Below, in pieces: positions 15,933-17,887 of a DNA stretch of 41,707 nt. Source of the stretch: Lachnospiraceae bacterium (GTDB lineage: Bacteria > Bacillota > Clostridia > Lachnospirales > Lachnospiraceae); the NCBI GenBank assembly GCA_017938145.1, contig JAGBCB010000025.1:1-41707 (forward strand), read 5' to 3'. Each line of letters starts with the position of its first letter. The stretch's first letter is position 1. The notes beneath the pieces were generated by a model. That model saw only the letters and a program-made list of their open reading frames with translations. It searched no databases and was not told the DNA's origin. The position numbers were made by a program, and so were the translations under genes.

Positions 15933-16424
15933 TTATTCTTCCTCTACCGCCAGCTCCATAGCCTTCATAAGTTGCTGTACTTCTACATCCCAGGCCTCGT
16001 CTAAAGACTTATCCAAAGTAAAGGTATTTCTTGCGGTACCGGTAATAATACGACCTGTGCCATGTTCAAACCGCATCTGCAAAAACAGAGACGGAGAATC
16101 CTCGCCTACGTTCACCTGCCTTCTGGCAAGCAGTTGTGCGGTGTCATTTTTGCTTAAAAGCAAAGTAAATGAAAATGCCAAAGGTGTCCGCTTACCTTTT
16201 ACCAGTTCAAACACAAAAGGCTTTACTTCTCCCCAGTAAGTATACTCTTCTGTATGCCTTTCCTGTTCTTCGGCATTAAAATATTCAGGGAATAATCTTC
16301 CTTGAAACCGATATTCCATTCCCGTTCGCAGGAAACCTTCCTTAAGCAAAAAGCCATCAAAATTCTCTCCTTTTAAAAACTTTCCCATAAACCGGTTCAT
16401 TTCCAGTATCTTTAAAGAAATCAA
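15933..16424 (-). CDS. DUF5721-like protein
   Basis: 163-aa soluble protein of unknown function. The pattern MISLKI...FMGKFLKGENFDGFLL at the start, YWGEVKPFVFELVKGKRTPLAF in the middle (about 62-84) and NTFTLDKSLDEAWD near the end (about 133-146) fits my memory of the Lachnospiraceae DUF5721 family. No membrane segment or catalytic motif is seen. Translation most likely begins at a TTG codon at 16424, because GAGGAGGAG lies just upstream and the resulting N-terminus matches the family; the first ATG (16400) has no such site. The gene precedes htpG by 140 nt and follows the toxin gene by 26 nt. Confidence 0.75.
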   Translation of the reverse strand: MISLKILEMNRFMGKFLKGENFDGFLLKEGFLRTGMEYRFQGRLFPEYFNAEEQERHTEEYTYWGEVKPFVFELVKGKRTPLAFSFTLLLSKNDTAQLLARRQVNVGEDSPSLFLQMRFEHGTGRIITGTARNTFTLDKSLDEAWDVEVQQLMKAMELAVEEE

Positions 16425-16450: not shown

Positions 16451-16918
16451 TTAAATCTCTTTATCCAATAGTTCAATAATTTTATCAATATCAGGTGTGT
16501 ATAAATTCCTATTACCCTTTTCATAATTATCCAGATAATTTTGACACGCTGTTATAATTTCTTTTTCATTATCATCGATATGTTTCTTTACTCCAAGCAA
16601 AAATTCGTTTTTATCATAATAATACGGGTTAATATATTTATCAATAATCGGAAATAACTTTATGTAAAATATACCATGATGAAATCCGGGCTTTGTTCTA
16701 TTGTTTGGAGGTAAAGGGAAATAATTTTTTCTATCTTCAGATGCTTTGATATTAGATTTGATCGGAACAATAAATTTTCTCTTTTTTCCTTGATATTTCA
16801 AAGATAAAACCAAGACACAGGGTCTACCCGCTTCACTTACTAATAGCTGGCGGTTTTCATTTGCGCCATGTTTTTCGCATGACTCGAAAAACTCTGATGT
16901 AACTTTTACTAACTGCAT
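16451..16918 (-). CDS. Type III toxin candidate, ToxN/AbiQ/CptN/TenpN-like endoribonuclease
   Basis: 155-aa protein. An N-terminal strand MQLVKVTSEFF is followed by RPCVLVLSLKYQGKKRKFIVPIKSN (split, about 32-56), then HHGIFYIKLFPIID at about 80-93 and a C-terminal helix with KHIDDNEKEIITACQNYLDNY (split, about 112-132). This order of strands and the PI(K/R)SN-type segment resemble the ToxN/AbiQ superfamily, whose members are RNases held inactive by a repeat RNA. What makes the call strong is the context: just upstream lie an intrinsic terminator, two tandem repeats and a consensus promoter, the exact plan of type III systems. AGGAG is 5 nt from the ATG, right behind the terminator, so the toxin is made from read-through. 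The gene is AT-rich against its neighbours. I rely on pattern resemblance, not on an alignment. Confidence 0.8.
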   Translation of the reverse strand: MQLVKVTSEFFESCEKHGANENRQLLVSEAGRPCVLVLSLKYQGKKRKFIVPIKSNIKASEDRKNYFPLPPNNRTKPGFHHGIFYIKLFPIIDKYINPYYYDKNEFLLGVKKHIDDNEKEIITACQNYLDNYEKGNRNLYTPDIDKIIELLDKEI

Positions 16919-16931
16919 TCCTTCTCCTTTG

Positions 16932-16963
16932 AAAAAGAATAGCTCCTATTTAAGGAGCTATTC
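16932..16963 (-). terminator. Terminator between antitoxin repeats and toxin gene
   Basis: A perfect 10-bp stem GAATAGCTCC/GGAGCTATTC with 7-nt loop and a five-T tract on the minus strand. The toxin ribosome site follows within 10 nt. In type III systems such a leaky terminator sets the excess of antitoxin RNA over toxin mRNA. Confidence 0.92.
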
Positions 16964-17017
16964 ACATACAACTAACTGTTGAACGATATTCTACGTTGAG
17001 TTCCCGTCGTTCACGGA
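16964..17017 (-). repeat. Antitoxin repeat 2 (54 nt)
   Basis: Second copy of the tandem repeat, 9 nt longer than the first through an extra block (GAACTCAAC) after the shared CGACGG-type segment. It abuts the terminator. Confidence 0.85.
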
Positions 17018-17021
17018 GAAC

Positions 17022-17066
17022 ATATACAACTAACTGTTGAATGAAATTCTGTCCGTCATTCGCGGA
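17022..17066 (-). repeat. Antitoxin repeat 1 (45 nt)
   Basis: First copy of the tandem repeat. Its last 18 nt are identical to those of repeat 2, and the first 14 differ by two substitutions. Four nt (GTTC) separate the two copies. Confidence 0.85.
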
Positions 17067-17086
17067 AAGCATTCCTGCTCATGTAT

Positions 17087-17115
17087 AGTATATACTTTTT
17101 TATTAAAAAAATCAA
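17087..17115 (-). promoter_or_regulatory. Promoter of the type III toxin-antitoxin locus
   Basis: On the minus strand TTGATT (17115-17110), a 17-nt spacer and TATACT (17092-17087). It begins 17 nt after the end of the traX-like gene and places the start at about 17080, directly before the repeats. Confidence 0.8.
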
Positions 17116-17131: not shown

Positions 17132-17887
17132 CTACAGCATCTTTGCCAACACGCCAAGCAAACAATACGCTACCGGGAATGCAAAATAAAATACCAATCG
17201 GACAGCCTTGCCTGTTTTTCCCTGTTCTCCGTTATAAAGCCAGGTAAACAAAACACTCAGGGCAGGAACAAATTCCAAACCGGTGGTACGTCTTGTAAAC
17301 AAAAGATACAGTGCCGCTACGGAAACCAGGGAAAACATTTTGTTTCCGTAAAACAGATACAGCGTAATTACCATCAGTACACCGATACTGCTCTGCTCCG
17401 TTTTTAATAAAATGGATAAAAACGCCGCAAACAGATACACACCCAAAGTGGATATGGTGTTTCCCATGGTACCCACTGCCACCTTTTTACCGATGGCGTC
17501 CACTGCCATAATAACTCCAAGGGCAATGCATAAAGTAAAGAAATAATTTTGGTTTAAGCCCCAGCTTTTCCATTCCGAAAGACCAAAGGTTGCCATATCC
17601 ATCGGAATTTCCACAATCAGCGCCGTAGCCAGCAAACGAAGCAATAGCTTCTTTCTGTCAGCAGTCTTTTTTGCCGCTTCCACCAAAAGAAATGCCGCCA
17701 GCGGAAACGCTGACAGATAAATCAGGTAACCCATGTTATAGGTCAGGGTAAGTGCTTTTGGCAGCTGCTCTCCCGCAAGAATAGCCTCCTCGTGCAAAGA
17801 ATATATCAACTGCTGCATGTAAATGCCAAGTATCATCAATCCGATACAAATACATTTTAAATGAAATGAATTCAACTCTTTTTTCAT
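17132..17887 (-). CDS. TraX family membrane protein
   Basis: 251-aa integral membrane protein with about eight hydrophobic helices. It fits the TraX family, named after the F-plasmid protein that N-acetylates pilin. Family-like segments are FPLAAFLLVEAAKK (about 61-74) and LLATALIVEIPMDMATFG (about 85-102). Chromosomal members are common in Firmicutes and their substrate is not established. It starts 22 nt after the GlgX-like gene and is probably cotranscribed with it. It shows no sign of belonging to a conjugative element here. Confidence 0.85.
   Translation of the reverse strand: MKKELNSFHLKCICIGLMILGIYMQQLIYSLHEEAILAGEQLPKALTLTYNMGYLIYLSAFPLAAFLLVEAAKKTADRKKLLLRLLATALIVEIPMDMATFGLSEWKSWGLNQNYFFTLCIALGVIMAVDAIGKKVAVGTMGNTISTLGVYLFAAFLSILLKTEQSSIGVLMVITLYLFYGNKMFSLVSVAALYLLFTRRTTGLEFVPALSVLFTWLYNGEQGKTGKAVRLVFYFAFPVAYCLLGVLAKML

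Follow-up and report, generated by a model that had tools for sequence, protein, structure and literature searches.

A type III toxin-antitoxin locus of a Lachnospiraceae bacterium with an antitoxin leader of one short and one long predicted pseudoknot

The DNA analyzed here (the window) is the 41,707-nucleotide contig JAGBCB010000025.1 of a Lachnospiraceae bacterium. On its minus strand lies a compact cassette made up of a leader with two RNA repeats, a terminator and a toxin gene, and its identity as a type III toxin-antitoxin (TA) locus, in which an RNA antitoxin is paired with a protein toxin, is confirmed as far as the sequence goes. The two repeats are unlike, one short and one long, and this short-long arrangement recurs upstream of homologous toxins. 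We consider it highly probable that the locus is a type III TA system of an unnamed clade, with a leader of two pseudoknots, a short one and a long one, and a toxin that is caged in the way proposed below.

Short and long antitoxin units in the window and across the family

In the window, the two repeats start 58 nt apart, and their final 18 nt (TTCAACAGTTAGTTGTAT) are identical. By eye, the repeat follows the pattern CCG-N-[6 nt]-CGG, then a loop ending in AGAATA, then the complement of the 6 nt; in unit 1 the loop ends in AGAATT rather than AGAATA. Unit 2 owes its extra length to an extended stem 1 (GUUC-U-CCG paired with CGG-GAAC, with a bulged U) and to its crossing loop, which measures 13 nt versus 7 nt after stem 1. 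In the window and its sister locus L006 (loci are designated by L numbers), the tail that follows stem 2 has additional bases. Two matches to the pseudoknot pattern were found in the 300-nt window leader, as in only 6 of 2,000 dinucleotide shuffles of it.

We then compared 68 leaders, namely those of the window, L006, L003, L007 and L008 and those of 63 loci obtained by scanning a genome collection with an alignment of the family; the same scan with the single window protein as the query gave no match. The family was found in Lachnospiraceae, other Clostridia, Collinsella and its relatives, Paenibacillus, plasmids of E. faecalis and viral contigs, and no toxin match at an E value up to 0.1 was found in phage records. 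A relative on an Apilactobacillus plasmid (L009) had no repeats in the upstream stretch that was read and was omitted after alignment A1. At least two pattern matches were present in 58 of the 68 leaders. Over 60 rounds of dinucleotide shuffling, this was the case for 0.33 leaders on average and never for more than 2 of 68 (an earlier 20-round shuffle of the same set gave a mean of 0.40).

For the unit counts, only matches with a loop ending in AGAATA, AGAGTA, AGAATT or AAAATA were taken, and 57 of the 68 leaders then had at least two units. Among these 57, 50 were short-long, 3 short-long-long, 2 long-short-long, 1 short-short and 1 long-long; the remaining 11 had one long unit (4 leaders), one short unit (2) or none (5). 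A unit was called short when its loop had up to 11 nt, a line drawn after the data had been seen, and the crossing loops measured 8 to 11 nt in short units and 16 to 23 nt in long ones. A loop difference of at least 7 nt within the locus was found for 55 of the 57 loci; counted by distinct leader sets, the figure was 40 of 42. The long form has a bulged, longer stem 1 together with either a more A-rich loop or an inserted hairpin; in most relatives, whose long units have loops of 19 to 23 nt, the added bases resemble a small hairpin (e.g., GCC-GCAA-GGC) ahead of the common AGAAUA. Large extra hairpins were seen inside the crossing loops of the L054 and L063 leaders, giving loops of 27 to 49 nt. 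A-NN-UGUA or a near form came right after stem 2 in 56 of the 59 short units and in 50 of the 66 long ones.

A preliminary description of this DNA had measured the repeats at 45 and 54 nt and suspected that one of them was a variant or decoy. The conservation of short-long pairs (50 of the 68 leaders), with stems kept in both forms, argues against a decoy, and we read the difference in length as that of a conserved two-form antitoxin. The long form is a short unit with a spacer that matches its longer stem 1, not a damaged copy. The same leader plan recurred upstream of homologous toxins. In eight loci (L019, L021, L038, L057, L066, L067, L070 and L081), the toxin frame was interrupted or lacked an obvious start and the units were kept upstream; these may be assembly errors.

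Pairing was assessed in two ways. When units were picked by their flanking anchors, blind to stem 2, this stem was perfect (6 of 6 bp) in 81 of 84 distinct units, and wrongly matched partners paired 6 of 6 in 13.4%. This test took 127 of 136 anchored stretches, the nine without a stem-1 anchor being set aside; of the three imperfect units, one (L007/L008) was misanchored, and two (L051 and L065) had a true mismatch. Pairs were also counted in three alignments, for crossing loops, counted from CGG, of 8 nt (A5, 37 of 39 distinct short units, omitting L064 and L067), 21 nt (A6, 20 of 21 units, omitting L067) and 17 nt (A7, 13 of 14 units, omitting one L008 unit). In these counts, the pairing of stem 2 and of the 3-bp core of stem 1 holds by construction because both were used to select the units. 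The short form had two-sided changes in 8 of 11 pairs, and its stem 1 has 4 bp, the fourth of which, outside the selection, paired in 34 of the 37 units. In the hairpin-long form (20 units), two-sided changes were found in 6 of 15 pairs, 2 of the 3 in the inserted hairpin among them. For the A-rich long form (13 units), the count was 7 of 13 pairs, including three outer stem-1 pairs outside the selection; its outermost stem-1 pair failed in 4 of 13 units. When the partners were slid by 1 to 3 columns, the paired cells fell from 92 to 100% to 23 to 56% in all three sets. The covariation thus supports an H-type pseudoknot for each repeat, in line with the pseudoknot-forming RNA expected in the preliminary description.

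The toxin and its relation to known type III systems

The predicted structure of the window toxin matched the fold of five solved type III toxins, which bears out the earlier assignment of the protein to the ToxN superfamily. The toxin is predicted to be a ToxN-fold endoribonuclease, with the RNase activity expected from its superfamily. It scored 30.3 bits on the CptIN model (NF047359) and 27.7 bits on the TenpIN model (NF047358), each with a curated cutoff of 90, and the window toxin itself thus scored slightly higher on CptIN. Among 35 family members scanned, all 35 matched TenpIN (best E value, 3.7e-13) and 8 matched CptIN (E values up to 0.01), with scores set against the cutoff for the window only. 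None of the 35 matched Pfam ToxN (PF13958) at an E value up to 0.01, 2 matched PADLOC AbiQ, and 31 fell in phrog_8049, a PHROGs family without a function. Pfam and PADLOC searches of the window's own toxin gave nothing usable. A PDB sequence search with this toxin found only a capsid protein (E value, 0.024), taken as chance, and a search with the family profile found only CptN (E value, 0.31).

In a tree of the toxins, the family stood beside TenpN (45 rows on the same side, support 85/65), which was represented by only three rows on long branches; the CptN (94/97) and ToxN/AbiQ (99/99) branches were separate. The tree leaves out broken or partial toxins, CptN L110, L114, L117, L121 and L124, ToxN L139 and L140, and family members L129, L131 and L132; structure alignment A4 omits L054, L056 and L063 of A3. 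With moderate to weak support, these sequences suggest an unnamed clade near TenpIN, related to both TenpIN and CptIN, whose border with TenpN is uncertain. The CptI-like class favored in the preliminary description was not borne out, given a score of 30.3 versus 90 bits, CptIN matches in 8 of 35 members versus TenpIN matches in all 35, the position beside TenpN and the unequal units.

TenpN is the toxin group closest to the family in the tree, and the TenpIN loci read share further features with it: a VP-x-RSN segment in L127 and L137 (RHN in L136, KSN in the window) and, by eye, a long A-rich crossing loop. However, TenpI units are of like length, whereas those of the family are short and long; the units were equal in the TenpI leaders of L127 and L136 and look equal by eye in that of L137. 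In addition, two of three TenpI leaders tested matched the Rfam family 6A RNA, whereas the window leader matched no Rfam family at an E value up to 1; four other leaders of the family had no Rfam match at the gathering threshold. 6A RNA (RF02925) matched all three repeats of L127 (267-419) and both of L136 (437-542) with 62.7 to 68.3 bits (gathering threshold, 41.2); the L137 leader did not exceed 27 bits, and that of the TenpI locus in L081 had no match at gathering. 6A RNA probably corresponds to the repeat of the TenpI antitoxin.

CptIN, known from E. rectale (PDB 4RMO), differs from the family in that its scorable units are of like length. CptIN toxins above the cutoff were present in 42 of 299 family genomes. 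As a control, 30 CptI leaders were read, of which 22 were scorable with both units in register, the picks in register being chosen by eye; the loop difference was 0 to 3 nt in 20 of the 22, and the other two (L109 and L110) were register ambiguities. ToxIN/AbiQ (PF13958) is set apart by its separate toxin branch and by the lack of Pfam ToxN matches in the family. ToxI units look of like length by eye, and in the portion of the published account available to us, each system has one unit length, of 34 to 36 nt (PMC5086642). Likewise, one unit length per locus is given in a table of type III loci of the gut microbiota, from a source available to us in part (PMC6315513), and the type III antitoxins in print are described as arrays with a single unit length.

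A viral contig (IMGVR_UViG_3300031867_000008, 140,956 bases) carried three consecutive type III TA loci (L081:2805-5069). The locus of this family had a short-long-long leader and an interrupted toxin, the CptIN locus (124.6 bits) had two 48-nt units that were 75% alike, and the TenpIN locus (152.2 bits) had two identical 51-nt units. A similar promoter stretch was found before each of the three.

Layout and genomic setting of the cassette

The features of the cassette and its neighbors are listed in Table 1. The promoter, two repeats, 10-bp terminator, ribosome site and 155-aa gene of the preliminary description were all found in their places on the minus strand, and its type III plan stood as well, with a terminator after a leader of RNA repeats, 5' of the toxin. 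The promoter scored 9 of 12 in a promoter scan, a match that is weak by itself because 13 promoter-like sites were observed in the scanned 2.5 kb versus 7.2 expected. In L006, the TTGATT and TATACT hexamers and their 17-nt spacing were kept with a different spacer sequence.

Table 1. Features of the type III TA cassette and its neighbors in the window
Feature	Coordinates	Strand	Basis and details
Promoter TTGATT-N17-TATACT	17087..17115	-	Read from the sequence; hexamers and spacing repeated in sister locus L006
Antitoxin unit 1, short form	17022..17068	-	Pattern search; covariation of the short form
Unit 1, stem 1	17066-17063 with 17055-17052	-	4 bp
Unit 1, loop 1	17062	-	
Unit 1, stem 2	17061-17056 with 17044-17039	-	GAATGA/TCATTC
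Unit 1, loop 2 (crossing loop)	17051-17045	-	7 nt (8 nt counted from CGG)
Unit 1, 3' tail	17038-17022	-	
Antitoxin unit 2, long form	16964..17021	-	Pattern search; covariation of the A-rich long form
Unit 2, stem 1	17021-17018 and 17016-17014 with 17006-17000	-	7 bp, bulged U at 17017
Unit 2, loop 1	17013	-	
Unit 2, stem 2	17012-17007 with 16986-16981	-	GAACGA/TCGTTC
Unit 2, loop 2 (crossing loop)	16999-16987	-	13 nt (17 nt counted from CGG)
Unit 2, 3' tail	16980-16964	-	
Intrinsic terminator between antitoxin and toxin	16937..16963	-	Perfect 10-bp stem and T-tract
Ribosome-binding site AAGGAG	16924..16929	-	Read from the sequence; precedes the ATG at 16918
Type III toxin, 155 aa, predicted ToxN-fold endoribonuclease	16451..16918	-	Sequence and predicted model
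Downstream neighbor, DUF5721 protein, host gene	15933..16424	-	Occurs without the cassette in genomes G001 and G002
Upstream neighbor, TraX-family membrane protein, host gene	17132..17887	-	Adjoins DUF5721 without the cassette in genome G001

The cassette has a G+C content of 31%, versus 43% for the window. In G001, a genome of the same genus, the cassette was absent, and the traX and DUF5721 genes lay about 30 nt apart at a clean empty junction; in G002, also of this genus, the site held neither the cassette nor traX. The toxin was not found in the three other genomes of the genus searched (G001 to G003). The view of the cassette as an AT-rich insertion between housekeeping genes was thus sustained by its base composition, its ordinary chromosomal neighbors and the empty site. 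No target-site duplication or integrase was noticed at the locus, in an analysis without a search aimed at either. DUF5721 and TraX were rejected as components of the system, both being present without the cassette in G001 and DUF5721 in G002 too.

A copy of the locus with 71% identity was found on contig C60 of the same bin. This contig (G000:C60:16-26583) is colinear with positions 603 to 27436 of the window over about 27 kb at 67 to 85% DNA identity, and a paralogue in the same genome was therefore rejected. Because of this colinearity, we read the copy as more probably the counterpart locus in a sister species whose contigs share a mixed bin, with a large duplication as the less probable source. 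The bin also contained a ToxN-family toxin (L146, G000:C66:66009-66506; 148.8 bits to PF13958) with a short leader of its own.

Proposed mechanism, alternatives and significance

From the layout, a single promoter would give rise to the leader RNA and, via a leaky terminator, to the toxin mRNA. The leader would fold into a short and a long H-type pseudoknot, as the covariation supports. The toxin may cut the leader in the single-stranded tail after each knot, at the A-NN-UGUA or near form that is conserved there, and would then be caged inactive in a toxin-RNA ring as in ToxIN and CptIN. The two forms share one knot geometry, a longer stem 1 going together with a longer loop across its groove. 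Each transcript would supply one knot of each form, and the two would most likely hold nonequivalent positions in an asymmetric complex. In the parts of the CptIN study available to us, the crystal structure is a 2:2 ring whose H-type pseudoknots have a first loop of a single nucleotide and a long second one (PMC4627078). Because CptIN forms such a ring and each transcript of the family has one short and one long unit, an asymmetric ring is the simplest model. A stronger version, held only tentatively and at somewhat less than even odds, is a new clade with an obligatorily two-part antitoxin, in which the short and long knots are not interchangeable, are supplied one each per transcript and build an asymmetric toxin ring unlike the known rings of identical units.

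Several observations weigh against the two-form reading or the separate standing of the clade. Under our rule, 11 of the 68 leaders lacked two units. In L020, L051, L065 and L075, a second unit was visible by eye, with a mismatch or an altered first loop; in L054 and L063, the loops exceeded the length in the rule; L044, L056 and L061 are close to the ends of their contigs; and L019 has a single long unit and a broken toxin. No antitoxin unit was found in the available upstream stretch of L061, where the sequence directly 5' of the toxin (L061:1-138) presumably resembles the 3' end of a group II intron, judged by eye. L060 (2184-2633) has an open family toxin frame with no recognizable unit in the 330 nt upstream. 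Moreover, the two forms are not strictly required, because L037 is short-short and L055 long-long. As for the pairing, a proposed fifth stem-1 pair of the short form was unsupported (6 of 37 units pair), and the outer stem-1 pairs of the hairpin-long form varied on one side only. Pair-type counts were only modestly above shuffles in the short and hairpin-long sets (10 and 24 of 500 shuffles as high) and not above them in the A-rich long form (312 of 500), and these counts overstate independence because many rows are related. In the tree, the split between the family and TenpN was weak (59/0), and the program flagged long branches meeting. Finally, 8 of the 30 CptI controls were not scorable: L101 and L125 had no units, L117 was masked, L114 was truncated where its contig ends, and L103, L104, L121 and L122 had one sensible pick each, the other pick in L104 being a low-scoring 25-nt loop.

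In one alternative, which we consider unlikely, a single form acts as the antitoxin, probably the long unit that adjoins the terminator, and the short unit serves as a spacer or a 5' cap or is a copy in decay. The reduced leader of L019 would fit, as it keeps one long unit, though its toxin is broken, and in the part of the report on E. rectale CptIN available to us, one CptI repeat rescues fully (PMC4627078). However, the short unit stands first in 54 of the 57 multiunit leaders. Both stem 2 and a stem 1 of 4 bp are retained across 37 distinct short units, with the fourth pair in 34 of 37 and two-sided changes, and in L037, where the toxin frame is open, both units are short and a long one is absent. 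We give still less credence to a regulatory role of the long unit, in which the short unit would be the antitoxin and toxin binding to the long one would alter termination or stability and set the antitoxin-to-toxin ratio. That the long unit is last in the 50 short-long leaders, beside the terminator as seen by eye in the window and in the relatives' leaders read, is consistent with this role, but L007 and L008 also start with a long unit, an element of this kind is lacking from the CptI and TenpI leaders that were read, and no alternative pairing of the long unit with the terminator was seen by eye (not computed) in the window. A harmless RNase-like protein merely regulated by a structured leader, with no TA locus at all, is very improbable. 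The resemblance of the predicted fold to those of five solved type III toxins and the type III layout argue against it, as do several loci with an interrupted toxin and a kept leader, expected of a toxic product although these may be assembly errors; what speaks for it is that the window protein falls below the curated family cutoffs.

An antiphage role of the window locus is not to be assumed, because E. rectale CptIN, according to the part of that report available to us, stabilized a plasmid in E. coli and protected against none of >200 coliphages (PMC4627078).

Our literature searches, in sources available in part, found no report of unequal antitoxin units, which is not proof that there is none; they suggest that a conserved antitoxin of two unlike pseudoknots is a feature not described in the literature searched. 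A discovery rule for type III loci demanded a tandem array of repeats, as stated in the part of the source available to us (PMC5086642), and repeat-based searches that demand near-identical tandem repeats may miss loci such as these. Among the libraries used, the family is covered by NCBIfam only below the cutoff and by PHROGs only without a function. A family with two unlike units makes it possible to test whether the parts of a toxin-RNA ring must be identical and how the toxin coevolves with its RNA when the two RNAs differ.
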